From assembly GCA_013306675.1 (NCBI GenBank), contig JABLUY010000016.1, positions 210,465-274,464 of the forward strand: 64,000 nt of DNA. The letters run 5' to 3'. Source of the stretch: Thraustochytrium sp. TN22. Taxonomy: Eukaryota > Sar > Bigyra > Thraustochytrida > Thraustochytriidae. How positions within the stretch are numbered: the stretch's first letter is position 1; each line of letters starts with the position of its first letter. A program made the position numbers and the translations under genes. Below the pieces are notes generated by a model. It did not search any database. It was not told the origin of the DNA and saw only the letters and a list, made by a program, of their open reading frames with translations. Below are positions 24,955-64,000 of the stretch, one piece after another.

Positions 24955-25591
24955 GGCCTTGCAAGCAAGACCGAGCGTGTGGCCTTGCTCGTGTGAGTGA
25001 CTTGAGTGTTCGAGCGAGGAACGGATAGCTGGGCTCGCTCGACGGCGAACCCGGCTTGCTGACGTGGCCTGACGTGGCCTACCCTGGTACCAGACAGACA
25101 CTGGCATGGATTCCACCTTTTCTTTCTCTCTGACCTGAATTCGCTTCTCATTGTCCTTGCGTCAAGAAGGGTGGTGCAACCCTTGCCCTGTGGTGAAAGC
25201 TCGCGTGCGACGATAGCGACACGTGCGAGACGGCACTACGAAAGCGACAACAGCGCCCCTCTCTCTCTCTCTCTCTCTCTTTGGAGCCCTCCCTCCTGCT
25301 CGCAATGGATGACTGGGACAGCGTCGCGTTCTAGGCTAGCTGCAGTGGTCACGGTGGTGGTACTGGTAGGCTAGTCTCGCTCAGATTCGCCACGCCTCCC
25401 TGTCACTGAGGCTCGCCACGCCTCATCAGAGTCACTGACAGGCTCGCCACGACGGGGTTGGACGGCCGCGGCAGAGCGCCTCGGCCTCGCGGTCGGCAGA
25501 CGAGGAAGAAGACCCGCGCGCGCGTGCGTGGGCCCGAGCGGACGGCGGCGGCGGAGCGGCGGCGGCAGCGACGGCGGGCGGCGCGGGCACG
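24955..25591. other. Divergent spacer with CT repeat
   Basis: 0.64 kb between the divergent LRR gene and the kinase-fusion gene. It has a (CT)n tract at 25259-25280 and direct repeats of GAGGCTCGCCACG around 25400-25450. Probable shared promoter. Confidence 0.5.
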
Positions 25592-46511: not shown

Positions 46512-46834
46512 ACATTACAGTCTGACTCACACGTAACTAGCTACCAGCTAGCACATCTGCCTGCTCAGCTGCCCATTTCTTGCCATTGGCGCTCAACGGA
46601 GCTCACAGTCAGGCAGGCTGGCACAATCGTTGCAAGGTGGCAAGAGATCCGTTGCCGCCACTGGCACCGGAGAGCTTTGTCCTTCCTGCAGTGACCTGCC
46701 CTTTCTAACGTGTTTCAACTTGCACTGGTCCCAACTTGCCGCCAGTAGAGCCAGCTCCTCTCGCGCGCGAACGCGCGCGAACGCGCGAGCGCGCGTACGC
46801 GCAAGCAAGCAATAGACTGACGCCGACAGACCAC
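46512..46834. other. Short spacer upstream of the first AMT
   Basis: 323 bp. GCTAGC-type words lie near 46540 and a CGCGCGAACG/GCAAGCAAGC tract at 46760-46812 immediately precedes the AMT start codon. Confidence 0.5.
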
Positions 46835-48553
46835 ATGCACGCAACAGCATGGTCAGGGTCAGCAACCGCGGCGGAAACGTGCGTGGACCGCGAGCCACTC
46901 GACACAGGATGGCTTCTCCTTTGCGGCGTCCTCGTGCTGACGATGCAGGGCGGCTTCGCGCTGCTCGAGAGCGGCAGCGTGCGCGTCAATAACTCCGTCA
47001 ACATCCTCGTCAAGAACGTCTTCGACGTGATGCTGGGTGGCCTGTGCTACTGGGCGCTCGGTTGGGGCCTCTCACACGGCACGTCCGCCGCAGGCATCCT
47101 CGGCACGAGCGGCTTCTTCCCGGACGAGGACTTCGACTACGCCGGGTGGTTCTTTCAGTTCAGCTTCGCGTCGACGGCGTCAACCATTGACAGCGGGGCG
47201 TGCGCGGAGCGCATGAGGCTGGGCGTGTACCTGGCGCTCTCCGCATGGGTTAGTCTCTTCGTCTATCCCATCGCAAGTCACTGGGTGTGGCACGCCGACG
47301 GCTGGCTCCGCCAGCTCGGCTTTATTGACCTGGCCGGGGCCAGCGTCGTCCACCTGCTGGGCGGCGCCTCAGCGCTCGCTTGCTACCTGCGTCTCGGCCC
47401 GCGCATGGGCATGCTTGGAAGGCCCATTCCAGATCACGTCGTCTGCGTGGCGCCGCACCTGGAGCTCTCGCACCGCGTGTTCGCGGGCGACCCGGTCCTC
47501 ATGCTCTTTGGCTGCATGCTGCTCTTCTTCGGCTGGCTCGGCTTCAACGCCGGCAGCTCTCTCGGTCTCGGCGCCGAGGGCCATCGCCAGGCCGCGCACG
47601 TGGCCTTCACCACCATCTTGGGCTCCTGCGGCGGTTGCCTCGCCGGCTCAATCACAGGCCAACTGCGCACTGGCCTGCTGCGCCCCAACATCATTGCCGT
47701 AGCCATGCTGGCCGGTCTCGTCGGCATCACCGGCGCGGCCCACGTCATTCGCGCCTGGGAGGCGCTCCTGCTCGGCGCGCTCGCCGCCATCGCTGCGGTT
47801 CTCGCCATGCCGCAGCTGCACAGGCTCAAACTTGACGACCCCGTCGGCGTCTTGCCCAGCCATCTCGTCGCCGGCTTTGTCGGCACACTTGGCCCGGGCC
47901 TCTTTGCACACGCCTCCACCTGCGGCGGACTCACTGACATCGAAGAGGGGCTCCTGTACAACGGCAGCCTCCGCCTGCTCGGCATTCAAGTCCTGGGCGC
48001 AAGCGTCATTCTGGCTTGGGCTCTCGGGTGCAGCTTTGCCTTTCTCTACATTGTGGAACGCGGGATGGGCATTGCCATCCGCGTTGATCCGGTCACTGAG
48101 ATCGTCGGCACCGACGTGCTGGAGCACGGTGTCGACGTCTTCAAAAGACTCAAGCACACTGCTGCTATGCAGGCCATGATGAGCAGGCTCAACCCGAGTA
48201 GTACGCCCTCCCTGGACCTCGATCGCATGGACACTGCCCGCACCATCTTGCGCGGAGATCAGCGTCACCAGCGCGTCGTCCCGTTTAGCACGGAGCCGAA
48301 CGCCTCCTCGATCGCTGCCGTGGCTGGCAGCACGGACCGCGTGTTTCTCTCCCTTCAAGAGTCCTCCCCGGGCCGTATCCTGCCACATAGGGCGCACAAG
48401 CAGCAGCGCTCGCTCGACTCCACGCGCGTCTCCACCACCGCGGGCCAGCTCGAGGGTGATTCCCTTAGCTTTCTCAACCACAGCGTGCTTCACGTGCCTC
48501 CAGCGCAAGGCCCCGACAAAGACGACGTCGCGTCCAAACAAGACTCTGGCTAG
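46835..48553 (+). CDS. Ammonium transporter (AMT family), copy 1
   Basis: 572 residues from ATG 46835 (MHATAWSGSA). Eleven membrane helices are expected. Conserved AMT landmarks: GGFALLESGSVRVNNS (helix 1), FQFSFASTASTIDSGACAER, the IDLAGASVVHLLGG helix with the conserved Asp and the first pore His, GFNAGSSL, and DDPVGVLPSHLVAGFVGTL with the second pore His. The cytoplasmic tail starts TDVLEHGVDVFKRLK and continues ~130 residues of Ser-rich sequence. It moves ammonium across the plasma membrane. It forms a head-to-tail pair with the next gene. Confidence 0.93.
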   Translation: MHATAWSGSATAAETCVDREPLDTGWLLLCGVLVLTMQGGFALLESGSVRVNNSVNILVKNVFDVMLGGLCYWALGWGLSHGTSAAGILGTSGFFPDEDFDYAGWFFQFSFASTASTIDSGACAERMRLGVYLALSAWVSLFVYPIASHWVWHADGWLRQLGFIDLAGASVVHLLGGASALACYLRLGPRMGMLGRPIPDHVVCVAPHLELSHRVFAGDPVLMLFGCMLLFFGWLGFNAGSSLGLGAEGHRQAAHVAFTTILGSCGGCLAGSITGQLRTGLLRPNIIAVAMLAGLVGITGAAHVIRAWEALLLGALAAIAAVLAMPQLHRLKLDDPVGVLPSHLVAGFVGTLGPGLFAHASTCGGLTDIEEGLLYNGSLRLLGIQVLGASVILAWALGCSFAFLYIVERGMGIAIRVDPVTEIVGTDVLEHGVDVFKRLKHTAAMQAMMSRLNPSSTPSLDLDRMDTARTILRGDQRHQRVVPFSTEPNASSIAAVAGSTDRVFLSLQESSPGRILPHRAHKQQRSLDSTRVSTTAGQLEGDSLSFLNHSVLHVPPAQGPDKDDVASKQDSG

Positions 48554-49576
48554 TGGATGCCAGGTTGCTGACGCTGCTTTTGAATAGAATAAGCCCCTGA
48601 TGACTTGACAATGAAAATGTGCTTTGACGCAGGGTGTGCTTTGGCCCTTGGATGATGTGCAAACATAGCTTCACGCCCCTTACCACCCAAAGTCACGAGC
48701 GGGTACCACGATGGCGCCGCTGAGGGCGCCTCCTCCGCACATGCCTTTCGTTAGGACGTCAGGTAGAGGCTCGACCGCTTGAGAAAATTCGGGAGCAGTG
48801 CTACGGGTAGGTGCCCGCCCTGGTATGCGTTTTCGCCCTGCGGAAAGCAGAGCATGCCTTGCGCCTCCTCATCAGCATGCTGGAGGGACCGTTGTGCGGT
48901 CCAGGCAACCGTTTTCCACAGTTTCCACACAGAATCGCGGTCCCCTGACAGCAAAGAGTCGCTGGCACGGTGGGCGTCAAGTTTATGGTAGGGCGGCACC
49001 AAGCATGTACATGGGTCGTTTTCCTGGAAGCGGGCCTTGGCCCTGCGTCGAAGTCGCGCTCGTGCGCGGCCCGTGGCGCCGGCTGCCGCGATGCCTCCGC
49101 ACATCGCTGACTTGCCTTCGTGACTCACACCTGTCCAACGGCTCCCAGGTGCCAGTGAACTTTGAAAGACGCACCCAGTCCGGTAGTAGGGTCGGCTCCC
49201 ACAGTCCCTGACCCGCTTTCAAAGCGGTGGCGCGGCGATCGGTGGCATCGCCTACTTTAGTATGAAAGCAGCGCAGGCGGTCCAAACAGAAGGTGTCCGT
49301 TTCTCATGTCGTCTTTTCGGCCCGGTCGAGCAAGGGCAACGAGCAAGGGATCGGCGTCTCCCGGCTTACAGTATTGACTTCTGCGGATGCAAATTCCCCC
49401 ACCAGCAGAAGAGCCGCGTCTCCGCTCCTCCGCACCGGGCCGTCCCGGCCAGCAAAATGTCATCCCCGCCCCAGCTGGCTGGCAGGCAGGCAGGCAGGCA
49501 GGCAGGCTGGCTGGCTGGCTGGCTGACGGACAGTGACTGACTGATTGGCACGGCCAAGCCAAGCTCGTCGCCCACC
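48554..49576. other. Spacer between the AMT paralogues
   Basis: 1 kb, no gene recognised. A (GGCA)n/(GGCT)n tract at 49479-49524 lies ~50 bp before the second AMT start. Confidence 0.5.
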
Positions 49577-51253
49577 ATGACCGTGGGCAGCACCATGGTC
49601 GGCGGGAACTTGACGAGCAGCGCGTTCGCGAGCTGTGAGGAGCGCGAGCCGGGCGATACGGGATGGCTCATCTCCTCCAGCGTTCTCGTCTTGACAATGC
49701 AGGGCGGCTTCGCGCTGCTGGAGAGCGGCAGCGTGCGCGTCAACAACTCCGTCAATATCCTCGTCAAGAACATCTTCGACCTTGTGCTGGGAGGAATCGC
49801 CTACTGGTCGCTCGGCTGGGGTCTCGCATTTGGCACCTCGGCTGGTGGCTTCTTGGGCACGAGCAACTTTTTCCAAGATGACGACCTCGACTACGCATTC
49901 TGGCTCTTCCAATTCAGCTTCGCAGCCACGGCCTCCACAATTGACAGTGGCGCCTGCGCGGAGCGCATGCATCTCGGTGTCTACTTTGGCCTATCCTTTC
50001 TCATGACGCTTGTCACCTACCCGATCGCCAGCCACTGGGTCTGGAATTCGGACGGCTGGCTCAATCAGCTCGGCTTCATTGACCTGGCCGGCGTCAGCGT
50101 CGTGCACATGCTCGGTGGCGGGTCCGCGCTTGTTTGCAGCCTTATGCTCGGCCCGCGCATGGGCATGCTCGGTCAGCCGCTGCCCAAGGAGCTCGAGTGC
50201 GTCAAGAAGCAGCTCGAGCTCTCGCACCGTGTTTTCTCGGGCGATGCCGTCCTGCTCCTCTTCGGGGCCATGCTACTCATTTTTGGCTGGGTTGGCTTCA
50301 ACGCTGGCAGCTCGCTCGCGCTCACCGGCGCCGGCCACTTACAGGCCAGCCACGTCGCCTTCACTACCATTCTCGGTGCCTGCGGAGGCAGCGCTGCCGG
50401 CACTTTCGTCGGCTACATGCAGACCGGCCTCCTTCGGCCCTCGACAATCGCCACAGCTGTGATCGCAGGTTTGGTTGGCATCACTGGCGCCGCTCACGTC
50501 ATCCAGGGATGGCAAGCGCTCATTCTTGGTGCCATCGCCTCCGCAACCGCCGTGGCCAGCATCCCGGTCCTCCAAAAGTACAAGATCGACGACCCGGTTG
50601 GCGTCCTCCCCTGTCACCTCATCGCCGGCATCGTTGGCACCATTGGCCTCGGTCTCTTCGCCCACGAGCCCACCTGCGGCGGCGTCTCCAACATCGAGCA
50701 TGGGCTCTTTTATGCTGGCCATCCCAAGCTTTTGGGGATCCAGACGCTCGGCACGCTGGCCATCTTCTTGTGGTCCGCCGGCTTCACATACGGCTTCCTC
50801 ACCTTTGTCCAGCGCGTTCTCAAGGTGCCCATTCGCGTCGATCCCATCCAAGAGATGGTTGGCAACGACGTCGTCGAGCACGGAATTGACGTCTTCAAGC
50901 GCCTCAAGTATACAACCGAGATGCAGGTGATGATGGCCAAAATCAATCCAAACACCTCCCGTGACTATACCACGCTCGTCGCCTCCCGCGTGGCCTCTGC
51001 TCGCTCTGTCCTGGACGCCGGCGGCGCAGATGCGGCCAAGCGCAAGCCGCGTGTGGACGCTCGCTCTCGCACCGTGCTCGCCCTCTCCAAGGGCGACAAC
51101 CACGAGGCTTTATCCTTCATGTCAGCGAACCTCTCGCACGTCAGCAATGAAAACAAGGACCAGGACGAAGACGGCCACGTCAGCGCCCAGGATCTAGTCA
51201 AGAGTAGTATCTTCTCCGATCACGGAGAAGAGGAGTCCTCGGGAACAAAGTAA
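49577..51253 (+). CDS. Ammonium transporter (AMT family), copy 2
   Basis: 558 residues, MTVGSTMVGGNLTSS. It follows copy 1 closely along its membrane part: GGFALLESGSVRVNNS, FQFSFAATASTIDSGACAER, IDLAGVSVVHMLGGG and DDPVGVLPCHLIAGIVGTI, with both pore His and the conserved Asp kept. The tail again starts EHGIDVFKRLK but then diverges, with its own basic stretch (DAAKRKPRVDARSR) and an acidic end (HGEEESSGTK). The divergent tails suggest different regulation by phosphorylation of a common transport core. Tandem duplication is clear from order, orientation and sequence. Confidence 0.93.
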   Translation: MTVGSTMVGGNLTSSAFASCEEREPGDTGWLISSSVLVLTMQGGFALLESGSVRVNNSVNILVKNIFDLVLGGIAYWSLGWGLAFGTSAGGFLGTSNFFQDDDLDYAFWLFQFSFAATASTIDSGACAERMHLGVYFGLSFLMTLVTYPIASHWVWNSDGWLNQLGFIDLAGVSVVHMLGGGSALVCSLMLGPRMGMLGQPLPKELECVKKQLELSHRVFSGDAVLLLFGAMLLIFGWVGFNAGSSLALTGAGHLQASHVAFTTILGACGGSAAGTFVGYMQTGLLRPSTIATAVIAGLVGITGAAHVIQGWQALILGAIASATAVASIPVLQKYKIDDPVGVLPCHLIAGIVGTIGLGLFAHEPTCGGVSNIEHGLFYAGHPKLLGIQTLGTLAIFLWSAGFTYGFLTFVQRVLKVPIRVDPIQEMVGNDVVEHGIDVFKRLKYTTEMQVMMAKINPNTSRDYTTLVASRVASARSVLDAGGADAAKRKPRVDARSRTVLALSKGDNHEALSFMSANLSHVSNENKDQDEDGHVSAQDLVKSSIFSDHGEEESSGTK

Positions 51254-51976: not shown

Positions 51977-52008
51977 GTGGGAGGAGCTTGTCAGTTCAAA
52001 CTTATAAA

Positions 52009-52188
52009 GGCTATCATTGACGTGGCGGCCGCATTGCTGTCTCGAGGAATCGCGGCTATCATTGACGTGTCGGCCGCATTGCTGTCTCGAGGAATCGCGG
52101 CTATCATTGACGTGTCGGCCGCATTGCTGTCTCGAGGAATCGCGGCTATCATTGACGTGTCGGCCGCATTGCTGTCTCGAGGAATCGC
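52009..52188. repeat. 45 bp tandem repeat, four copies
   Basis: Copies at 52009-52053, 52054-52098, 52099-52143 and 52144-52188, starting GGCTATCATTGACGTGTCGG. They are identical apart from one base (GTGGCGG for GTGTCGG) in the first. The stop codon of the LRR-only gene (52151-52149) lies inside the last copy. Confidence 0.97.
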
Positions 52189-53892
52189 GAAAATAGTGGT
52201 ACAACAGCACGGAGCATGCTAGCGCGCGCCTGCAGTACAGCGAGGCGCTCCTCCGCAACCTTCAACTGGAGCGCCTTGCCTTGCGCACTGGATGACGTAT
52301 CCTCTGTCGACAGCAATTCGCACTCGTGCACAGCGGCCTGCGGCAAGAGTCGCTGCCGCGACAGCTGCACTACGGAGCGCAGCACCTGCACCATCAGCAC
52401 CGCCTCGCACAGACCTTGGCGCGCTGTGCGCAGCTGACGGTTCAAAGCGAGCTCGTGCGCCAGGTCTCCTCCGCTCGCGTCGAGCGTTGACGGAAGCACG
52501 CTGGGAAACAAAAACAAAAAAAGAAGAGTCAGTGGCTCTGCCTTGGCGAGCGCGACCAAACCACGCACCGGAGCTTTTGCAGTGCTGTGTTGCCACGCAG
52601 AGCATCCACAAAAGCTTGTCCGCCGAGTGGAGTCACTTTGGGGTTTGCCACGAGGCTTCGCGTGCATCAACTCATTAGCTAAAGGCTCTGAAAAAAAGCG
52701 ACCGGCCAAAGCAGCCGGTGAAAGCGACCAACGAGAGCGACCGACGGAAGCAATAGGTCGAGCTTGCACGCACCTGAGCTCTTGGAGGCGATTGTTCGCT
52801 TTGAGAGCCTCCGCGAGCGAGCGCACGCCGTCGTCGCCCACCTCACAGTATGCGAGGCTGCGCGAGGAAAGAGGTGAGCCCGTGAGTCACACTGGATTAT
52901 TCTTAGCCACAGCGGAAGTCTGAAACCGTACTTGAGCTCGCGCAAAGACTCATTCTCCATCAGAGCTTGCGCCAGCGCCTCTGCGCCTTCGTTCCCGATG
53001 GAGCTGCGAACCAAGCTGAGGGCGCCGTTAGCGTCCCACGAGCAAGAGCGGGCCTCCAGTCCTCTCATGCGGGACTCACTACAGTACGCGGAGTGACTTG
53101 TTGGCCCCGAGCGCTTGCGCCAGTGATCTGGCGCCAGCGTCGCCGATGGAGTTCCCTTCAAGGCTGCACGGACCGTGAGCCAACATGGCTTTGCAATGCA
53201 AGGCTCAGCGCAACGTACTCCAGAGTCGCCAGCGATGTGTTCTTCTCCAGCGCCCGGGCCAGCGCCCCGGCGCCCGTAGGACCAATGTCACAGCTGTAAA
53301 GGCTGCGATACAAGCTGTTATGAGTTGCTGGGCATCGCCAAGTCAGGAAAAGTGCCAATCAACGCACAAGAGCTTCTGGAGCGACGGGTTGCACGTCAGC
53401 GCACGTCCGAGCGCCTGAGCACCCACGTCGCCGATCTGGTTGCCTCCAAGTCTGCGACGCGCGGCGTACATGAGCCGTTGCCGTGCCTCCTCGCCACGCG
53501 GCGAGCACAACTCACTCTAGTTCCGTCAGCGTCTCGTTGCTCTGCAGCGCCAGAGCCAGCGCCTCGGCGCCCGCCGGCCCAATCGAGTTGTCCGATGCGC
53601 TGGAAGCGCGCATGTCAGTGAGACGGCCCGAGCCAAAGCACGATCGAGCCAAGGAACTCACTTGAGCTCGAGCAGAGTCTCGTTATGCACGAGCCGCTGC
53701 GCCAACGCAGTGGCGCCTTGCGAACCAACCCAGTTCCATCGAAGACTGCGACCAGCGTCCCTTGCTAGGGTCAGACGGCCATCTTTCACGCGTTCCTCCC
53801 TCGTGCTCCAACGTCCTATGCACGTACTCCAGGTGCGAGGCGCCCTCGTCCAGGCGCTGCAGAGCGAGCGTGACGACCTCCGAGTCCTCCAT
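52149..53892 (-). CDS. LRR-only receptor-like protein, one LRR per exon
   Basis: Nine exons: 53892-53828, 53745-53662, 53599-53516, 53451-53368, 53302-53219, 53163-53080, 53015-52932, 52857-52774, 52500-52149. They total 1005 nt (334 residues) and the frame closes. Exons 2-8 are each exactly 84 nt and each encodes one 28-residue ribonuclease-inhibitor-type LRR, e.g. WNWVGSQGATALAQRLVHNE. Every intron is phase 2 (donors GTGAGT, GTACGT, GTGCGT). Exon 1 encodes MEDSEVVTLALQRLDEGASH, equivalent to the first exon of the ROCO gene upstream. The last exon encodes a helical C-terminus (LRTARQGLCEAVLMVQVLRS) instead of Roc-COR-TIR. It looks like a relative of the ROCO gene that lost or never had the signalling module. 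The start could be further upstream. Confidence 0.8.
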
Positions 53893-53906
53893 TGCCGAGC
53901 AGCGCC

Positions 53907-53953
53907 GCGCAGGGACGAGCACGGTCGCCCGCGCAGGGACGAGCACGGTCGCC
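53907..53953. repeat. 23 bp direct duplication upstream of the LRR-only gene
   Basis: GCGCAGGGACGAGCACGGTC + GCC occurs at 53907-53929 and 53931-53953, just 5' of the start codon. Confidence 0.85.
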
Positions 53954-54160
53954 ACCCAGCTTCAGTCGTGCACTGCACCACGCCGTGCCGCACCGCGCCG
54001 CACCGTGCCCAGCTGCGCCGCCGCGTTGAACGCCCGGACAACTTTGCTTCTCCCGACAGGTCCGGCGCATAAAAAAAGGACTCGGAGCGAACTTCGGTCC
54101 TCACGCACGGCACCCAAGCGTATCCCAGAGCCCGCAAGCGAGAGAGAAAAGGAGAAAGGT

Positions 54161-57100
54161 TCAAACTGTACTGTTGATGGCGCTCTTGATCATGGCAGCG
54201 AGCTCTGCAACCTCGTAGTCGTTACCGCCCTCGAGCATGTTCGCATACAAGGGGGATCCGCCCCAGCCGAAGCCAAAAAAGCCCTGCCAGGCCGAGGTGA
54301 TGGTCATGTCCGCCTCCAGCACACAAGGCACCATGCGCGCCTGGGTGTGCTGGTTTCGGATGTAGGCAAACTCGTCGCGGCAAATGTCGTCCTGGCTCGC
54401 TGGTGTGTTGACCTTATCCATGTAGCGGCGCGTCACGAAGATGACGCTCGCCTTGGACTGGTCGATGCCTTGCGCCATGGCCCGTGTCACGTTGCCCTGC
54501 TGCGCTTCGGTCTGGTCCAGCCAGCAGCGGATGCCGTGCACGGAGTTGAGCGTCTCGGCGACCTGACTCACGATGCGATGCGTCGCGTTGTGCGGGCCCC
54601 AGTCGTGCGAGAGAAATACATCAAATGGCTTGGCGGCGTCCGTGCCGGCGTCGCGCAGCTGCAGGGCCTGAGGCGTGCAAGCTACCACAGCGCCAAAGGC
54701 AGCCAGGGGGAGCGACTTGCCCCCGAGCGAGCGCACCTTGCCGTCGTTGGACGGCGCGGCGAGCTCGCCCGCTGAGGCGCACGAGCGGGGCTCCATGGTG
54801 CCGTCAGAACTGACAAAGATCTTGGTTCGCAGCGCACTTTTCATGAAGGAGGTGTTGATGCCTTCAAGGCCGGCCTTGAGCAACGCGATGCGGTCCACGA
54901 GGCTTTGGGAAGAGCCTGAAGCGAAGCGGATCACCACACGGCGGTGATCGTACTCCATCTCCAAAAAGGTATCGACGCCATCGAAGAGCATGTGTACCGT
55001 GTCCGCTGTCACCTCCAGGACGTGCGCCCGAGAGTGAAAGGTCTGCACGAAATGAGCCACGAGGCGCTGGAAGATGCCCTTGGGCAGGACACTGAATTTG
55101 ATGTATGCCAGCGAGCCTCCCGCGACCGCGGCGAGGCCTTTGTTGCGGGTCTCGCCATCCGCTGGCCCAAGCAGGCTCGGAACCAGCAATGCGCCCTCCG
55201 CGTCGATGATCTCGTCTTCTTCATCTCGCACACCAATCCAAGGGCTCGCGCTCGCCAGGAGCATGTCTTCCATCAAATCTGTGAGGTAGGCCACGTGGTC
55301 ATTGCGCCACAGCCACGCCAGCAAGGCGCGACTCGCCACAGCGCGCCCTTCCCAGGCCTCGAGAGCGCTCTCGAGGCTCGGCGGGAGTTGCTCATCGTGG
55401 AGAAGCCGCTCCTTGTGCTTGTCCATGTGCTGCGCGTCGCAAATGACGCGCGAGAGCTTGTTGAGCAGCCATTGCGGCTGCAGTACCACGACCTTGCAGA
55501 GCGACTCCGAGCCGCGCAGATGCACCAGCACGCCCAGCTCGTGCAAGTACTCGAGCATCTCGACCACTTCCGCGCCGTCGAGCCCACCGTGCACGAGCGC
55601 AAATTGCTTGACCTCGTCGAGCGTCAAGTGAGCGTGTCGCGTCGCGAGCAGCTTGTCCAGGCAGAACGACCAACGGAGAGGCACCTCGCGGGCGACGAAG
55701 CTCTTGTGTGCAACCGCCGCCGTCAGGGCGGCGCGCAGCCGCGCCACGCGCCCCTTCGCGTCCCCGCGGCTCATGTTGTTGAGCGGGAAAAAGCGCAGGC
55801 GCTCCTCGTCGTTGCGTACCACCAGCGGTCTCCCGCCCAAGCCGCGAAGGGCCGTCTTGTCAAGGGCCCTTTGGATCTGCTTGTGCTGCGCCGCGTCAGG
55901 GACCTGGTCCAGGTACGTCCCCACGAGCACGACGCTGACGTCCGGTGCGTGCAGGCGGATGGACTCGAGCCAGTCACGCAGCGTCGCCAGGGCGTCCTCG
56001 GGCGTGGCGAGCCGCTCATACTCGGCCGCGTCCAGCTGAGCGTGAAAGGCCTCCTTGCCCAGCACCTCGCGCATGTCAAAGACTAGCGCGTACACGCCGT
56101 AGCGCGTCAGGAAGAGGTGGTGCAGCGCGTAAAAGACCTCCTGGCCGCCGTAGTCCCAGATGGTGAAACTCACCTCCTCGTCCACCTTGGCGCCCTGCTC
56201 CTGCACGCGCACCCTCATCTGAGCGTTGTACGCTCTTGCCATTTCCTTTTCCATGGTAACGACGGGTCGAGGCGCAGGCGCAGTAGGAGGCGCAGGCGGA
56301 GAAGCTCGTGCCGATGTGGTCACGCTCACGGTCAGCTCCTTCTCCGCGCCTGCTCCTCGTTGCCGGTAGGTGTGCTTGGCGAGCTGCTCGCTGAGCACCG
56401 AGGCGTCCAAGTCGGCTTGTTCCACCCAGTCCCGCGTCCGTGTCAGCTTGAGCTCGACGCCGATCGTCGACTCGTGCTCAAGCACCACGGTCTGGTTCAG
56501 CAGCGTGCGGATCGTTGACGACTTGCCTGAGGCGGCCTGGCCAACCACCATGGCTTTGGCCCGACCCCAGCGAACCTTCTTGTTGCCCTGAAGCGCCGCC
56601 AGTGCATCCGAGCTAAACGCGTCGACCTCCTCACGAACAATCTTGAGACGAGTGCCGATCCTGGCCGCGGTGGCTTTGCTCACGTGAGAGAGCACGAGCG
56701 TCTGCAGACAACTGGCAGGGTTTCGCTCCAGCGCTCGCGCCAGCGCTTCTGCTCCTGCGTCATCGATCTCGCTGAACTGCAGGCTACGTGTTTGGCATGG
56801 TAGGATCGTCAGTGATCTTGGCAATCCTACAGAGGTCTGTGGCAGATTTGTAAAATAACCCATGAGCGACTCGTGACATGGTCTTTCATCAGGTCGCAGA
56901 TACCTCAGAAAAAAAGAAGAAGCAAGCCAGGAACTCACTCGAGCTTTGTCAACCTGCACCGGCCGCTCTCCAACGCTTGCGCCAGCGCCTCGGCGCCAAC
57001 TGAACCGATGCTGTTGCGCGCCAGGCTACACATCAGCACCGCACGTTGTCAGTCTTCGCTGGTCCATCACGGCATCGACTTCCCCCTTAGAAGCCTCGGT

Positions 57101-58925
57101 AACTCCGAGCTTGCGAGCCGAAGCGTGTGCAACCACGCGACGAGGTGGACTGCATGCGGCTCGAGCGAAGATGGAAGCAAAGGAACTCACTTGAGGTACG
57201 TCAACATGCAATGGCCACTCCCCAGTGCGCGCGCCAGCGCCTCGACGCCTGCGGGGCCTATCGTGTTGCTAGAGACGCTGCATTCCAGTGATGAGAGAAC
57301 GTGTCAGCGAGCCTGATGTGCCATGCGATTTTGCCTCCAAGGCAGCCAGCAACGCAACAAGAAAAGGTAATGGAAAACTCACTCGAGCGCCGTCAGCGCG
57401 TACTGGCCAGTCTCCAGCGCTCGTGCGAGTGCCTCGGCGCCCGCGTCGCCCACGTTGTTGACGGGGAGACTGTATTGGGAAGAGGCGAGTCGTCAGGGAT
57501 CTTGCCCTGTGCACGTGTCGCCCAAGATCCTGGCTGCGGCCAAACGAAGCCTGCCCAGCCTGCCTTTGTGGCCGGGCCCGCGCGCACGTGTGAGAGTAGC
57601 CCGTGTCCGCGCGCACGCGTGCGATCACGCCATGTCCGCGCACACGCGTGCGATCAGGCCGTGGAGATCAGGCCATGTCCGCGCACACGCGTGAGGTCAG
57701 GCTGGTCACGAAGAGCCCGGGCGCGTCGATGCCGCCGGAGATGGCAAAAGGAAGCAACGAGAAAAGCAAGAAAGAGACTTACTCGAGCGTTTGCAGCGGG
57801 CACTGGCCGCTCTGCAGAGCTCGCGCCAGCGCCTTGCCGCCTGCCGCGCAGATGTTGTTGCTCTCCAGGCTGCGTTGTGTGGCAAGGTTCGTTGGTCGTC
57901 ACATTCCATCATCATCCACCATCTCCGCACGGGGCACGTGGTAGCGCCACGAGCACGCCTGCTCCGGTGAAGAATGTTTGTCGGACGCGTGACCTGACCG
58001 TTGCCTTCTCGTGCGATTCAGGCCGCTAAGCGCCTGATTTACTCAAGGCCGCCATGCATGAGTGAAACTCACTCCAGCGTCATCAGCCTACAGTCGTCGC
58101 TTTCCAACGCTCGCGCCAATGCTTCAGCGCCCACATCGCCAAGGTTATTGTTGTAAAGGCTGTGATTGGGCACGTCAGGTCGTCAGTGTGCTTGATGTCA
58201 TGCTGCCCTTCGAGGCCTGCACATCACACGCGGTGAATAAAAAACGAGGAGTGAAGGAAAAGGGAACAGCGAAAAGAGAAACTCACTCAAGCGCTGCCAG
58301 GGAGCACCGGGCACTCTCTAGCACCCGCGCCAGTGCCTCGGCACCTGCTGGACCGATGTTGTTGCTGATCAAAAGAAGGCTGTGTCCATGGACGTAGGGC
58401 AAGTTGTCAGTGGGCACGGTGGTCTCTTTGAAGGCTTGAAGTAGTGCTGAATGAGCTCAAGTGCGACGAGAGAAGCGCACTTTGCTTCACACGCTCCAGC
58501 TAGCTAGCAGTAGCCACGCTCAAGCACGAGACGGTTTCTACTTTTCGAGTTTGCCGGAAACAATGGAGGGATTGGGAACTCACTCGAGCGTCTTGTGCGT
58601 GCACTGGCCGCTCAAAAGCGATCGAGCCAGCGCTTCAGCCCCCGCGTCGCCGATGTCGTCGCTACACAGGCTGTGGTTTCCGTATGCAGTGCACCTTGTC
58701 CATGAGCATGGTGATTTACGTGGCGTCCAAGGTCGCTGCGCATCCGCCAATATCCACGCGATGGAGCCGGGATGATCTGCTGGCCTAGGCACCATCAAGC
58801 GCAGCGCAGACCGTCTGCCGACGTCACCGTCAGATTGCCGGCCCCTGCACGTACCTGAGCTCCGTGGCTCCATGCTCGAGCCTGCAAATGGCGTCTTCCA
58901 CGATGCCTCGAACCCGTTTGTCCAT
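54161..58925 (-). CDS. LRR-Roc-COR-TIR receptor (ROCO family), exon-per-LRR
   Basis: Nine exons: 58925-58855, 58670-58584, 58379-58287, 58159-58073, 57869-57783, 57469-57383, 57277-57191, 57025-56939, 56783-54161. They total 3309 nt (1102 residues) and the frame closes. All introns are phase 2, and exons 2-8 are 87 nt (one is 93) and encode one LRR each, e.g. NNICAAGGKALARALQSGQC. The large last exon encodes the last LRR, a Roc GTPase (P-loop GQAASGKSS ~310, IWDYGGQE ~437), a COR region (~560-900) and a TIR domain (~945-1100) beginning FDVFLSHDWGPHNATH, with CWLDQTEAQQG, VIFVTRRYMDKV and ICRDEFAYI. The C-x-x-E places Glu ~1029 where TIR NADases have their catalytic Glu. Likely a cytoplasmic STAND-like sensor. 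The frame is open upstream of the chosen ATG, so a longer N-terminus is possible. Confidence 0.85.
57590..57705. repeat. CATGTCCGCGCACACGCGTG repeat inside a ROCO intron
   Basis: About four imperfect ~27-36 bp copies of TGTCCGCGCACACGCGTGCG plus ATCA/GTCA in the longest intron of the ROCO gene. ACGCGT palindromes are regularly spaced. This repeat explains why that intron (313 bp) is the longest. Confidence 0.8.
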
Positions 58926-60212
58926 GATGAGAGAGAAATCCACAACCTCTCCGAGCTTAGGACAGATCGATAGCGCTCGAGCGCCGGCACCTGCGCCCGC
59001 GCATACGAGAGGCCGTCGCCGCCGACAGGCGTAGCTCGCGCCGTGGCGAGAGCAGCTCCGAGACCACACGCGTCCGCGACCGATCTCAGGCTGCCCTTGT
59101 GGCCGACGCAAGCGCCACGCCCCGGAAGTCCCAGCAGCGGCGCGCGCCGCCGCCAAGCCGCCGCGTGGCGCGCCCCGCCGCCGCGCAGACGCCGCGCACG
59201 CGCAGACGCCGCGCACGCGCAGGCGCCACGCAGACGCGCTCGGGTCTGCCGGAGTGGGAACCGCACGACACGGACGAGTCTGGCCTGACGCGCGCTCAGC
59301 CGCGCTCTGGCGCGCAACTCCAAGTTGAAAAAGGTGCCGCCGCCGGCGTGCCAAGGCGCAGCGCAAGGGTCAAGACCTAGCCAGACTGCGACGCACTGTG
59401 GCATGCGGAGCTCGTGCCGGCCGGCGAATGATTCCTGCGCAAATCACAATGTTGAGGCGATCGTGATGTGCGTTGAGCGCCTGATTGAACGGCAGCGGGG
59501 CCGTCGCGGCCGGAGAAAAGCGTGAGCCGGCGCAGCGGGCCACATCGAGTAACCTTACTCGCGGAGAGCGATCACCCAGCAGACACTGCCATTCGAGCGA
59601 CCGTCAACATGTCCCTGCGGCTCCATGTCACTCGAAGTAGGGGCCGGGGATGGGGGAACGAGCGAGCCGGGAGACAGCTACTCCTATGCCTCCCTCCGCC
59701 TGTCTGCGGCGGCAGCGAGATCTTGCACACGCAACTTCTACTTGGCGAAAAGGAGAACAATAGCATCGTGGCCAAGCAGGCACGAAGCGATCATACCAAG
59801 AATGACATGAGAAGGCAATGCGCAAGAGTTCGCGCCTTGTGCCTTGGCAGCAGGGCCCGGGCTACCAATGCAGCAAGCAAAGCCAGCCCAACGCAATCGC
59901 TTTGTTACGCTGAGAACTGACACCCAGAGGCTGGGCTCGTCACTTCCAGAGCAGCGGGAGCGCGGCGGCACGCTGCCGTTCTGCACGCCTGGACACACCT
60001 ACACGCATGCGTGCCGCCACAGTGTGAATGAATGGGCGGTGCACACTTGATGTCCTGGCACCAGTCTCCCATCTGCAGCAAGAAGCAGAACAACGGTTCC
60101 GCCAGCGACGCACCTGCGGGCTACTCTCGGCCAGGTGAGAGCCTGCACGCGTACGTCACGTACCTCCACGCGCGAATTTGATTCGTCCCATGAGCTACCT
60201 AACCACCTGAGC
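58926..60212. other. Spacer between the two TIR genes
   Basis: 1.3 kb. CGCGCAGACGCCGCGCACG repeats at 59170-59235. No independent gene supported. The ROCO frame stays open upstream to ~59366, so part of 58926-59366 may be its 5' coding or leader sequence. Confidence 0.45.
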
Positions 60213-61256
60213 TTAGCACTCGGCAAAGGAGGCAAAGGAGGCAGCTTTCTTCATCTTGAGAACGTGCACCATGCCGGATGCGTCACCAGCAACAATTGTG
60301 GCGCCCTGACGGACGCAATCTCTAATGGCATGATCCGTGGTGAAGCCCGCCCGGCCATCGGCAGGCAGGATCTTGACTTGATTTGCCACCTCATCCGCAA
60401 GGGCGTGGCGCCCCCACTCCAGACGCGTCGCCGTGGCTTGAGCGTCCACTTGCGCACCGGTCTGCAGGTCCCAGTGCAGCACGGTGCCGCTGCCGTCCTT
60501 GCTGGTGATGATGCCGCCGTCCAAAGCCACGCTGTTGACGGAATCAGTGTGCCCCTCGAGCACGTGCAGCATTTGGCCGGTGTGAGCGTCCCACACGCGC
60601 ACCGTGTTGTCGTCAGACCCAGACACGATCCGGTCGCCGTCCAAAGCCACGCTTAAGACGTTTGACGTGTGCCCCTCGAGCACGTGCAGCATTTGGCCGG
60701 TGTGAGCGTCCCACACGCGCACCGTGTTGTCGTCAGACCCAGACACGATCCGGTCGCCGTCCAAAGCCACGCTTAAGACGTTTGACGTGTGCCCCTCGAG
60801 CACGTGCAGCATTTGGCCGGTGTGAGCGTCCCACACGCGCACCGTGTTGTCATAAGACCCAGATACGACCCGATCGCCGTCCAAAGCCACACTTCCGACA
60901 TCGGATGTGTGCCTCTCGAGCGCGTACCGCATTTGGCCTGTGTGAGCGTCCCACACCCGCACCGTGGTGTCGTCCGAACCCGACACGATGCGGCGGCCGC
61001 CCAAAGCCACGCTCTTGACTTGCTCTGAGTGCCCCGCGAGCACGCACAGCATTTGGCCGGTGTGAGCGTCCCACACGCGCACCGTCGTGTCTTGAGATCC
61101 AGACACGATCCGGTCGTCTTGCAAAGCCACGCTGTTGACCCAATCAGTGTGCCCTTCAAGCACGTACAGCATTTGTCCGGTTTGAGCGTCCCACACGCGC
61201 ACCGTCATGTCTTCAGACCCAGACACGATCCGGTTGCCGTCCAAAGCCACACTGTT
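60213..61256 (-). pseudogene. C-terminal WD40 half, in frame with the TIR-NACHT gene after a TAA
   Basis: Same reading frame as the gene upstream, separated only by TAA at 61259-61257. It encodes the rest of WD repeat 5 and repeats 6-11 (HTGQML, HVLEGHTSNVLSVALDGDRI, SGSDDNTVRVWDAHTG), then two or three degenerate blades and a basic end (LKMKKAASFASFAEC). It has no ATG of its own near the break (the segment begins AAC AGT GTG GCT). Together with the upstream part it would make about 14 blades, i.e. two seven-bladed propellers. It is called a broken 3' part; readthrough, a sequencing error or an allelic null are alternatives. Confidence 0.65.
60547..60851. repeat. 120 bp WD40-coding repeats with exact identity
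   Basis: 60547-60731 is identical to 60667-60851, i.e. a 120 bp (40-codon) unit is repeated with no change over 185 positions. Adjacent units to both sides are more diverged copies of the same 120 bp period. Confidence 0.95.
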
Positions 61257-64000
61257 TTAATTAACTGCAGAGGTGTGCCCCATGAGAACGTGCAGCCTTT
61301 GGCCGTTATAAGCGCTCCATACGCGCACCGCCTTGTTTTCAGATCCAGACACGATCCGGTCGCAGTCTATAGCCACGCTGTTGACAGAATCAGCGTGCTC
61401 CTCGAGCACGTGCAGCACTTGGCCGTCGCGAACGTTCCACACGCGCACCGTGCTGTCCCAAGACCCAGACACGATCCGGCCGCCGTCCAAAGCCACGCTA
61501 GTGACTTCTAAAGTGTGCCCCACGAGCACGCGCAGCATTTGGCCGGTGTGAGCGTCCCACACGCGCACCGCATTGTCGTCAGACCCAGACACGATCCAGT
61601 CGCCGTCCAAAGCCACGCTGGTGACTGTCGAGGTGTGCCCCTCGAGGACGTGCAGCATTTGCCCGATGTGAGCGTCCCACACGCGCAATGTGTTGTCCAA
61701 AGAAGACCCAGACACAATCCGATCGCCGTGCAGAGCCACGCCGAAGACAGTGCTCTTGTGACCCCTGAGCACGTGCAAAAGCGGATCGCGCGGCGGGGCG
61801 AGGGACTGCTTGACGGGGCAGAGCCACGATTTTCGCGGCGGTTCGAGCGTGCGTCGCAGGGGGTGGTCGGAGTCGGTGATGCGTGCGAGGATCTGGCTGG
61901 CGAGCTGGTCTGGGTCGGTGGTTACGGCGAGCATAACCTTGCTCAAGAGTCGGGGTGTGTCGCTGCGGGCGTCGAGCTTGGCTCGTTGTGTGTCGCGAAG
62001 GACGCCGCCGATGAAGGCATGGCGATCGTTGGGCGAAGACTTGGCCGAAAGGAGCTTGTGGACCCAGTTGAAGTCGTCGAGCAGCTTGAGGGCGTCGTCC
62101 TGTCGCTCGCTCATGCCGAGGTGGAAGATGACGTGCTTGAGCGCGAAAGTGGTGCTGTCATTAAGCAGAACCTCGGCAAGCGTTGCGTGGCCTTGATCGC
62201 ACTTGACCTGGAGATTTCTGCCCGCGCGGGCCCGGTCGGCGAGGAAGTCGGGCATGGACTTGTGGATGAAGCGCACGGTGGTGCCGACCACGTCGAGGAG
62301 CTGAGCAGCCCTAGCGAGCAGCTCTTCGGCCTCAAGAATGTCGAGGCCGAGGACCTCGGCGGCAACGCTAACGGGCAATGGATCGCGCGCAGCGCACATG
62401 GCGCCGAGAAGGGCGCGGTAGACCTTCTTGTCGCCTTGCAGCGGCCCGTTGAGCAGCCTGCCGAAGTACTCCTCGTACATGGCGTCGAGGCCGGAGGGCA
62501 AGAGGCCGGCAAGCTGGTCGGCCGTCAGCTTGCTCACGCCGTCATCATGGAGCTTGTTGTGCAGCATGGCGGCGTACAAGAAGAGACCTTGCGCGCTCTC
62601 TTCGAGCTGGGGGAGGGCCTTGTTGAGCTCCGCGTCGCTGGCCATGAAGTCCTTGAGCTTGGCGCGGAGGAACTTGGCGACGTCGGCCTTGTTGCGCTCG
62701 TCATCGAGGTCGAGGATGAGCGGATCGTAGTGGAGCAGGCGCTCGCGGATCTCGTCCTCGGGCCTCGAGGCGACGAGGAGGCCGAGCCAGTCGGGCGTGC
62801 TGCGGCTCCACTCCTGGCGAATGATGCGGAGGAGCGCGTCGCGCTGCTCGGGGTCGGCCTCGTCCAGCGCGTCCAGCGCCACGATGACGCGCGTCGCGGG
62901 CCTGTCAACCTTGGAGCACGGCTCGGCGATGATGCGCTTGAACAGCGTGAGCGGGTCCTTGTGCTTGGTGGCGTTGGCGATGAGCTCCGGCGTGTACTGG
63001 TCGCGCAGGCCCGGGACGACCGCGGCGAGCTGGTTGGCGATGCTGAGCAGGCACACGAGCACGTCCTTCGCCTGCACGTCATGGTAGCGGAAGAAGTGGG
63101 CGGCGCCGATGATGTAACGCTGCGAGCGGGACAGGCGCTGCGAGACACGGGCCGTGATGGACCGCCGGGGCATCTCGGGCGCCGCTAGACCGAGCAGAAC
63201 GGCGCAGATGGTGGCGATGGTGACGGATTTGCCAAAGCCGGCAGGGCCGAGCATGGCCATGATGCGCGAGCCCCAGCCGGACTTTCTGGCCCAGTCTTCG
63301 AACTCGCGGAGGATCCAGAGCCGCGTCTCGGCCTGGTACTCGAGCGCCTTGGCGCGGCCTTCGAAGCGAAAGTCGTAGCCGAGCTTGAAGAGGGCCAGAG
63401 GCGGCGCCTGGGTCGCTGCCTGCTCGGGCGAACCGACGCCGGCCTTGGCGCGGATCATGCCGGCGAGCCTCAGCATGTCCTCCTCAAACTGAGCGTCCCC
63501 GTCGCCTGAAAAGCCGAAGTACAGGTTGCTTTCGAAGACCATGCCGACGACGCCGGTCCACCTGTTCTGGGGAGGGATGGACGACTCCATGACGACCGCG
63601 AGCATGCGCTCGGGCTTGAGGCGGCCAGCGTGGCGAAACTCCCGACGGCAGTTGTCGAGCATGTCGTCTCCGTTGACGGCATCGTAGTACTCCTGCGACA
63701 GGAACGCCACGAAGACGCCGCAGTCTTCAATATTCTTGGTCATGAAGTCCATGATGTCGCCCTGCAGGTCATGCTCGTCGAAGATGACCCTGATGCGCAG
63801 CTGCGCGTAGCGTGCCTGGAAGAACCGCGCGATCCGCGCCACGCGTGCGTGATTGCGCTTGCCCGGCCCCCACTTGTGCGACAAGAAGACGGTCACCTGC
63901 TCGAGCTCGAGCTCATCTCCGGCGTCCGCCTCGGGGGCGGTCGGCGGCGCGGCGTCCGGCGCCGCCGCGCGCGGCCGCGCCGTCGGCCAGAAGCGCGAGA
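61257..64000 (-). CDS. TIR-NACHT-WD40 STAND receptor (5' partial)
   Basis: Open from the right edge, so the start is outside the window. An Ala/Pro-rich lead-in is followed by a TIR domain (~63900-63420): VTVFLSHKWGPGKRNH, VIFDEHDLQGDIMDFM, VFVAFLSQEYYDAV and DNCRREFRHA, whose C-x-x-E matches the TIR NADase glutamate. The NACHT-type ATPase follows: Walker A GPAGFGKSVTI (~63250-63215), Walker B VIVALDALDEAD (~62890) and ASRPEDEIR (sensor-1-like), then helical domains with a VRFIHKSMPDFLAD motif as in NWD proteins. WD40 repeats begin at ~61780 (LHVLRGHKSTVFGVAL). The frame hits TAA at 61259 inside WD repeat 5. Architecture equals fungal HET-E/HET-D type NWD proteins with TIR in place of HET. 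Likely a cytoplasmic sensor with inducible NAD-cleaving output, inferred. Confidence 0.88.
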   Translation of the reverse strand, partial: SRFWPTARPRAAAPDAAPPTAPEADAGDELELEQVTVFLSHKWGPGKRNHARVARIARFFQARYAQLRIRVIFDEHDLQGDIMDFMTKNIEDCGVFVAFLSQEYYDAVNGDDMLDNCRREFRHAGRLKPERMLAVVMESSIPPQNRWTGVVGMVFESNLYFGFSGDGDAQFEEDMLRLAGMIRAKAGVGSPEQAATQAPPLALFKLGYDFRFEGRAKALEYQAETRLWILREFEDWARKSGWGSRIMAMLGPAGFGKSVTIATICAVLLGLAAPEMPRRSITARVSQRLSRSQRYIIGAAHFFRYHDVQAKDVLVCLLSIANQLAAVVPGLRDQYTPELIANATKHKDPLTLFKRIIAEPCSKVDRPATRVIVALDALDEADPEQRDALLRIIRQEWSRSTPDWLGLLVASRPEDEIRERLLHYDPLILDLDDERNKADVAKFLRAKLKDFMASDAELNKALPQLEESAQGLFLYAAMLHNKLHDDGVSKLTADQLAGLLPSGLDAMYEEYFGRLLNGPLQGDKKVYRALLGAMCAARDPLPVSVAAEVLGLDILEAEELLARAAQLLDVVGTTVRFIHKSMPDFLADRARAGRNLQVKCDQGHATLAEVLLNDSTTFALKHVIFHLGMSERQDDALKLLDDFNWVHKLLSAKSSPNDRHAFIGGVLRDTQRAKLDARSDTPRLLSKVMLAVTTDPDQLASQILARITDSDHPLRRTLEPPRKSWLCPVKQSLAPPRDPLLHVLRGHKSTVFGVALHGDRIVSGSSLDNTLRVWDAHIGQMLHVLEGHTSTVTSVALDGDWIVSGSDDNAVRVWDAHTGQMLRVLVGHTLEVTSVALDGGRIVSGSWDSTVRVWNVRDGQVLHVLEEHADSVNSVAIDCDRIVSGSENKAVRVWSAYNGQRLHVLMGHTSAVN

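Follow-up and report, generated by a model that had tools for sequence, protein, structure and literature searches.

What do three adjoining minus-strand genes do at the end of a contig of a unicellular, thraustochytrid-like stramenopile? The window, by which we mean the whole 64 kb of DNA that was analysed, is the last part of contig C77 of a 37.9 Mb genome in 453 contigs, and its final base coincides with the final base of that contig. Using Pfam profiles, the three genes at its end were found to encode a TIR-NACHT-type-WD40 protein, an LRR-Roc-COR-TIR protein (hereafter ROCO) and a protein with LRRs only. The reading that we favour, with some reserve, is that the trio belongs to a large set of intracellular non-self sensors which has expanded in this lineage. 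The computed evidence comprises the domains, the exon phase of the modelled genes, the repeat arrays, an excess of amino-acid change on the LRR face that is found in a single set of exons, a conserved glutamate in the TIR domains and recurrent gene pairs; the immune function of the trio is inferred.

Domains and exons of the three genes

The gene nearest the contig end is without its 5' end, because the contig stops inside it. Its upstream open reading frame (ORF) matched TIR_2 (E-value 2.4e-8), NPHP3_N (5.4e-17; 67 bits against a cut-off of 24.8) and WD40 (1.5e-30), and the WD40 matches run on into a second ORF beyond an in-frame TAA, which splits the array. NPHP3_N is a family which we take to be a NACHT-like NTPase; the Pfam NACHT model itself reached 16.2 bits (E 0.0097), under its cut-off of 26.7. 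Of the TIR-NACHT-WD40 protein put forward by the sequence-only reading, the TIR domain, an NTPase of the NPHP3_N type and the WD40 repeats were recovered, while the NACHT model stayed under its cut-off, the array is split and the 5' end is lost.

Whether this gene works is an evenly balanced question. It may be a dead gene or an assembly fault, in which case only the ROCO and LRR-only genes would function here: the TAA is in frame, the contig ends within the gene, and a close relative on contig C243 (TIR 84% identical) has an open frame of 1401 codons. Contig C406, moreover, ends 0.3 kb past a stretch with the end of another such WD40 gene, as if arrays of this kind break assemblies. Against this, the WD40 repeat pattern is intact in the two ORFs before and after the stop, and the cell could still produce a receptor that ends a few WD40 units into the array.

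In the ROCO gene, ORF 54164-57025(-) matched Roc (2.1e-15; 57.5 bits, cut-off 27), then COR-A (6.5e-12; 46 bits, cut-off 35.3) and TIR_2 (7e-12), and the exons upstream matched LRR_6 (1.2e-33), which places the LRRs at the N-terminus. The LRR-only gene matched LRR_6 at 5.5e-42. Among the Pfam families listed (25 of 34), COR-A was the only part of COR to be matched, its second half (COR-B) giving no match, no kinase was matched in the window genes, and no HET domain was matched, its place being occupied by TIR_2. The three adjoining minus-strand genes, the LRR-Roc-COR-TIR and LRR-only architectures, and the combination of two sensor types and two switch types, each with a TIR domain, had all been proposed earlier and are borne out by these matches; of the domains expected from Pfam, TIR, Roc, COR-A, WD40 and LRR_6 were matched, and only the NACHT model failed.

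Exon borders of the ROCO and LRR-only genes were picked by hand, and the models are built from the DNA alone. The ROCO model has 9 exons encoding an uninterrupted 1102 residues and the LRR-only model 10 exons encoding an uninterrupted 363 residues, both with AG/GT borders. All 17 introns are in phase 2 (8/8 in ROCO, 9/9 in LRR-only) and therefore every middle exon is a frame-neutral, one-LRR cassette. A separate script looked at the window's 16 LRR matches and found borders of the same phase on both sides of 15; the exception is the last ROCO exon, where a donor is lacking. When other stretches of the genome are examined together with the window, phase-2 borders occur at both ends of 60 of 85 LRR matches (overlapping loci counted twice); since at one locus (L033, C398:51654-52154) five LRRs share one frame without such splice borders, the cassette layout is not universal.

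The LRR-only gene had been described as sharing its exon structure with the ROCO gene and as a possible co-receptor or decoy. Phase and layout are indeed common to both, whereas the repeat length differs: seven of the eight LRR exons of the LRR-only gene are of 84 nt (27-residue repeat), against 87 nt (28-residue, Cys-type repeat) for six of the seven in the ROCO gene, where the range is 87-93 nt. The C-terminal exon is also its own; elsewhere in the genome it has 24 matches at E<=1, of which 8 reach E<=0.001. Because of the different repeat lengths and this C-terminal domain, the gene does not resemble a ROCO copy that was beheaded recently, and its own start exon together with the C-terminal domain weakens the proposal of a decoy. 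The gene is probably a partner or regulator of the ROCO gene that it adjoins, and its protein may modulate or assist the ROCO protein.

At its 3' end a repeat of ~45 bp, in about four copies, was seen by eye at ~51980-52190, and the first copy holds the final residues and the stop of the LRR-only gene. Of the 24 other matches to the C-terminal exon, 22 stop at query residues 103-111 of 116, about where this repeat begins, and the remaining two at residues 93 and 113.

The repertoire and its gene neighbourhoods

Genome-wide family counts, made with Pfam profiles at E<=0.001, are lower bounds. There are at least 123 matches to TIR_2 (114 over the curated cut-off), at least 46 to COR-A (42 over cut-off) and at least 46 to NPHP3_N, all flagged as over cut-off. 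A TIR domain lies within 2.5 kb downstream of 36 of the 46 COR-A matches and within 2.5 kb upstream of 22 of the 46 NPHP3_N matches. Since the 92 TIR fragments examined (of 123) fall into 88 clusters at 95%, inflation of the counts by haplotypes is small but present. The LRR exon arrays C11:306553-309384 and C359:8468-11293 have nearly equal spacings and are perhaps two haplotypes with slight length differences.

Neighbourhoods were compared with a model of uniform placement. The C-terminal exon of the LRR-only type lies 3.2-3.5 kb downstream of COR-A on the same strand at four loci against 0.06 expected, and for that reason ROCO and LRR-only genes are a recurrent pair, whether through co-duplication or function. 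Besides the window these loci are on contigs C86, C387 and C121. On C86 the C-terminal match (E 0.0017) is preceded by LRR exons, and for the LRR-only gene downstream a fitting first exon of 59 nt, which has a start codon of its own, was picked out by eye; on C421, three C-termini of this type stand upstream of a sub-threshold COR-A. The association of ROCO with the NACHT-type gene is much looser, with NPHP3_N found within 10 kb of 3 of the 46 COR-A matches against 1.1 expected; one of the three is the window and the other two share one gene on C215. Outside this count, a WD40-gene 3' end, 76% identical to that of the window over 123 residues, is found upstream of ROCO on the same strand on C406, and on C398 ROCO is preceded, at a distance of 13 kb and also on the same strand, by an NPHP3_N gene.

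The co-orientation noticed in the window thus recurs as ROCO followed by LRR-only at all four loci, and as far as this pair goes the cluster stands; for ROCO beside NPHP3_N it does not stand out from the expectation to the same degree. Its interpretation as one functional unit is weakened because each gene is a draw from a family with dozens of members. That the three genes adjoin through chance, or because duplication at the locus left them side by side, without joint function, is accordingly a serious explanation, to which we give somewhat less than an even chance. Local duplication is common, since a second COR-A match is found less than 10 kb away from 13 of the 46, where 1.1 would be expected, and the count for NPHP3_N neighbours fits this explanation as well. 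It is opposed by the order, strand and spacing of ROCO and LRR-only genes at the four loci, and by the WD40-gene end on C406.

Two tandem arrangements were observed elsewhere in the genome. At C160:1247-4627 four TIR matches lie exactly 1043 bp apart with one TGA in each, a tandem array of a TIR-bearing unit, and C288:20655-40806 (L015, L020, L024) holds three tandem ROCO copies, ~83-91% alike in DNA, where TIR matches upstream of two copies suggest TIR-Roc-COR-TIR proteins.

Sensor arrays and the TIR domain

Copying of LRR cassettes is most evident on C86, where a 285-bp unit consisting of an exon and an intron is repeated 6.8 times in tandem at 98%, five of the copies having the same LRR peptide. 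Among the matches listed (part of 192), constant spacing was also found on C11 (315 and its multiples), C149 (317-321), C398:313103-315160 (273-279) and, in part, C379 (312, 315), as deduced from match positions and not from a reading of the DNA. In 14 distinct 28-residue exons, the codons of the LRR beta-face gave proportions of nonsynonymous (pN) and synonymous (pS) differences of 0.51 and 0.38, or pN/pS 1.32 (bootstrap 1.08-1.66), against 0.36 for the non-face codons of the same exons, and the face ratio was reached by 119 of 20000 random codon sets; the face codons (2, 3, 5, 26, 27) were picked from general knowledge of LRRs after the diversity of the columns had been seen. The set, drawn from C77, C86 and C406, is restricted to 28-residue matches in which position 23 is C or Y, one of them from the C86 LRR-only gene, and leaves out the 29-, 30- and 27-residue matches of the same contigs.

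The WD40 array of the window was compared over 8 complete units, leaving out the first unit, the one that the stop interrupts and the degenerate one at the end. Variability is highest at seven positions, namely 5, 7, 21, 4, 23, 37 and 40; positions 5 and 7 flank V6 (8/8 units), and 21 and 23 flank D22 (7/8 units). No 120-bp array was present in the examined part of two other NPHP3_N stretches (L011, L012).

Statements on the TIR domain cover 92 of the 123 matches, the other 31 not being among the sequences aligned. These TIRs fall into several sequence classes, and the SARM1-type catalytic glutamate is present in 90 of the 92 (36/36 ROCO, 16/17 NPHP3_N-linked and 38/39 other TIRs). In a second ROCO-TIR class the profile aligns it to the glutamate of 'WVHKE' in human SARM1 (E-value 3.3e-8), which is residue 642 when counted along the 724-residue chain from the match start at 560, and the NPHP3_N-linked class aligns likewise to the glutamate of nematode tir-1. 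For the window's own ROCO-TIR class, which among solved proteins matches a SEFIR protein and Cat1 best, the correspondence comes only through the 92-row alignment; the TIR classes of the window resemble solved TIRs weakly in sequence. According to one published account, SARM1 E642 is needed for NAD+ hydrolysis and all the prokaryotic TIRs examined depend on a putative catalytic glutamate (PMC7282519). Because this glutamate is so widely kept, NAD cleavage by these TIRs is likely.

A lack of the catalytic glutamate had been considered and was ruled out, as the wrong column had been used; according to the SARM1 alignment the residue lies further on, in the 'WVHKE' helix. Both TIRs of the window have this glutamate and are 30% identical over 141 residues, so the 'same TIR output' earlier ascribed to them holds for fold and probable chemistry only, and they are not the same module. 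AlphaFold2 modelled the ROCO TIR from its single sequence at a mean predicted local distance difference test (pLDDT) score of 45.7, which is too low for a search by fold.

Pattern-based scans of viral contigs found no relative of the TIR alignment or of the ROCO protein, and none was found in phages. Among genome contigs, 18 stretches fit the pattern, and 3 of them (L095-L097), all on Acidobacteriaceae contigs of metagenome-assembled genomes, encode a relative, with stretches 35-39% identical to the ROCO-type TIR; these may be bacterial relatives or foreign contigs in the assemblies. PADLOC gave three weak matches in the TIR region of the ROCO ORF and no match for the NACHT-type ORF.

Considering the known behaviour of these families, on which every step beyond the anatomy rests, the sensors might work as follows. 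A repeat sensor, either LRR solenoid or WD40 propeller, would bind a protein that is microbial or an altered form of self; the nucleotide switch, which is Roc-COR with GTP in one scaffold and the NACHT-type NTPase with ATP in the other, would then change state and gather several copies; and the clustered TIRs would cut NAD+, so that the cell is starved or a signal nucleotide is made, leading to cell death or defence. The repertoire would vary by copying of units, which are one-repeat phase-2 exon cassettes for the LRRs and in-frame 120-bp units for the WD40s, and selection would act on the binding face of the sensor. Ligand binding, oligomerisation, NAD cleavage, the immune purpose and the partnership of ROCO with LRR-only proteins are thus all put conditionally.

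Several observations weigh against the interpretation as a lineage-expanded set of non-self sensors. Besides the NACHT model under its cut-off, the in-frame TAA and the few ROCO/NPHP3_N neighbours, the TIR is absent from the expected side (within 2.5 kb) at 10 of 46 COR-A and 24 of 46 NPHP3_N matches. Of the paired loci, C121 has a sub-threshold COR-A without TIR, and the LRR-only match on C387 is weak (E 0.017), with LRR exons preceding it among the matches listed. All pN/pS values are raw counts from small samples rather than a codon-model test, and a ratio above 1 is limited to one exon set, since the 27-residue LRR exons (n=29) give 1.01 on the face against 0.56 elsewhere in the repeat and the window LRR-only exons (n=7) 0.97 against 0.51. 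The WD40 units show no sign of selection by this measure, because pS is also high at the four codons of positions 5, 7, 21 and 23 (pN 0.60, pS 0.78; elsewhere 0.15 and 0.20). Schizochytrium aggregatum, a thraustochytrid, bears on the taxonomic spread. It has at most 4 ROCO genes according to PMC11378527, so that either the ROCO expansion is not group-wide or the present host is wrongly assigned to the thraustochytrids.

A more ambitious version is tentative and, in our opinion, rather doubtful: the immune repertoire would be combinatorial, with LRR-Roc-COR-TIR and TIR-NACHT-WD40 as two unrelated scaffolds that are each diversified by frame-neutral repeat copying, such that individuals or even cell lines differ in their receptors, and ROCO with an LRR-only helper would drive NAD-cleaving suicide against viruses or bacteria.

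The locus among known systems

The closest published counterpart is the LRR-ROCO family of brown algae (Ectocarpus and others), for which PMC11378527 gives single-LRR exons that are in phase 2 and 72 bp long (23-residue LRR) and reports no other domain combination. N-terminal LRRs, Roc-COR, one phase-2 LRR per exon, tens of genes in some species and LRR-only sequences of the same exon type are common to both, and we count the diversifying selection reported there as a further likeness. Here, in contrast, the LRR exons are of 84-93 nt (87-93 nt in ROCO) with RI-type repeats, a C-terminal TIR is present and follows 36 of the 46 COR-A matches, and the host seems to be a heterotroph. The other SAR species named in the same source have at most 4 ROCO genes each, and ROCO genes of green and red algae are reported there in multicellular ones only. 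Among them the TPR-ROCO-TIR protein of the red alga Chondrus crispus (PMC11378527) has Roc-COR and TIR in common with the present family, but a TPR sensor in place of LRR cassettes present here in dozens of copies.

The WD40 sensor recalls the HNWD and NWD genes of the fungus Podospora anserina. The WD40 units of Podospora are 42 residues long, those of the window 40, and an N-terminal TIR here replaces the HET domain. The likeness lies in the NACHT-type NTPase, in near-identical WD40 units and in two variable pairs of positions (PMC1805685, PMC2873952). In the NWD genes, codons 7, 9, 25 and 27, paired around the conserved codons 8 and 26, are described as positively selected (PMC1805685) and as sitting on the top face of the propeller (PMC1805685, PMC2873952). 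Positions 5, 7, 21 and 23 of the window units would correspond to them by layout, not by sequence alignment, and the window's homogenised units are variable at these two pairs, as judged from 8 units. It is conceivable from this resemblance, but unlikely, that the genes are receptors by which the cell distinguishes self from non-self among the same or related species, or recognises bacterial prey, with TIR-driven death as outcome after the manner of HNWD; the homogenised units and variable positions speak for it, and the TIR standing where HNWD genes carry HET speaks against it.

As for the switch and the output, the best solved relatives of the window Roc-COR are bacterial LRR-Roc-COR proteins and human LRRK2, from which the present protein differs in its TIR output and in having no kinase match among the families listed. 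SARM1 and the plant and prokaryotic TIR NADases (PMC7282519) have in common with it the TIR fold with the catalytic glutamate; the TIR here, a putative NADase, is instead fused to Roc-COR or to a NACHT-type NTPase. The idea that the ROCO-TIR and LRR-only proteins are general signalling or cytoskeletal proteins, with TIR as an assembly module and the arrays as by-products of a repeat-rich genome, is improbable: in Dictyostelium, chemotaxis and the dynamics of the cytoskeleton involve ROCO proteins (PMC11378527) and other tandem repeats are present in these regions, but the family size, the glutamate in nearly all aligned TIRs and the LRR-face excess in the 28-residue exon set stand against it.

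In the open-licence literature, searched at the level of listings, which is no proof of absence, we found no report of such a receptor repertoire in thraustochytrid-like organisms. The component parts of the proposed sensor set are known; their combination and scale are apparently new.

Features of the three genes in the window (minus strand throughout; positions are those of the window, contig positions in brackets)
Feature	Position	Strand	Basis
Upstream ORF of NACHT-type gene (913 codons), cut off 5' by the contig end	61260..63998	-	Pfam, contig end
TIR domain, NACHT-type gene	63507..63890 (C77:273971-274354)	-	Pfam TIR_2
NACHT-type NTPase (NPHP3_N; NACHT model under cut-off)	62763..63326 (C77:273227-273790)	-	Pfam
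WD40 array of 10.4 units (120 bp each, 79% matches); two of the 8 compared units DNA-identical	60515..61777	-	repeat and unit comparison
In-frame TAA within WD40 array	61257..61259	-	reading frame
NACHT-type gene, second ORF, remaining WD40 array, 347 codons	60216..61256	-	ORF, Pfam
ROCO exon 1, proposed start codon	58855..58925	-	hand-built exon model
ROCO LRR exon 2, phase 2-2	58584..58670	-	exon model, border script
ROCO LRR exon 3, phase 2-2, acceptor less certain	58287..58379	-	exon model, border script
ROCO LRR exon 4, phase 2-2	58073..58159	-	exon model, border script
ROCO LRR exon 5, phase 2-2	57783..57869	-	exon model, border script
ROCO LRR exon 6, phase 2-2	57383..57469	-	exon model, border script
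ROCO LRR exon 7, phase 2-2	57191..57277	-	exon model, border script
ROCO LRR exon 8, phase 2-2	56939..57025	-	exon model, border script
ROCO last exon: last LRR, Roc, COR, TIR, stop	54161..56783	-	exon model, Pfam
COR-A domain	55367..55675 (C77:265831-266139)	-	Pfam
TIR domain, ROCO gene	54308..54619 (C77:264772-265083)	-	Pfam TIR_2
LRR-only exon 1, proposed start codon	53828..53892	-	exon model
LRR-only, 8 single-LRR exons, phase 2-2	52569..53745	-	exon model, border script
LRR-only LRR exons 1-4	53662-53745, 53516-53599, 53368-53451, 53219-53302	-	exon model
LRR-only LRR exons 5-8	53080-53163, 52932-53015, 52774-52857, 52569-52655	-	exon model
LRR-only last exon, C-terminal domain	52149..52500	-	exon model; genome matches of C-terminal exon

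Elsewhere in the window, two adjoining ORFs, 46709-48550(+) and 49541-51250(+), encode ammonium transporters (PF00909, 308 and 319.5 bits). A single ORF at 34629-37073(+) matches aldo/keto reductase and then 3-dehydroquinate synthase, a possible fusion, and another at 25439-28579(+) has sucrase/ferredoxin-like and adenylate kinase matches, two stretches of each. A large PfaA-type polyunsaturated-fatty-acid synthase is typical of thraustochytrids; the genome has such an ORF of 3044 codons (2539.7 bits, cut-off 1010.1), with an opposite-strand ORF of 2083 codons near it. The profile search of the genome gave no match to PF00504 (chlorophyll-binding). The host is accordingly taken, tentatively, to be a labyrinthulomycete and probably a thraustochytrid.

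Receptor families that have expanded and keep diversifying have mostly been described in animals, plants, fungi and brown algae. If the trio does belong to a lineage-expanded set of non-self sensors, a unicellular heterotrophic stramenopile would be using both the exon-cassette LRRs of brown algae and the homogenised WD40 units of fungi, and would have coupled the two to the TIR enzyme of plants, animals and bacteria. The brown-algal LRR-ROCO genes could then be set beside a family, probably of the same broad group, whose output domain can be seen, and variable immune repertoires in single-celled eukaryotes would become directly testable.

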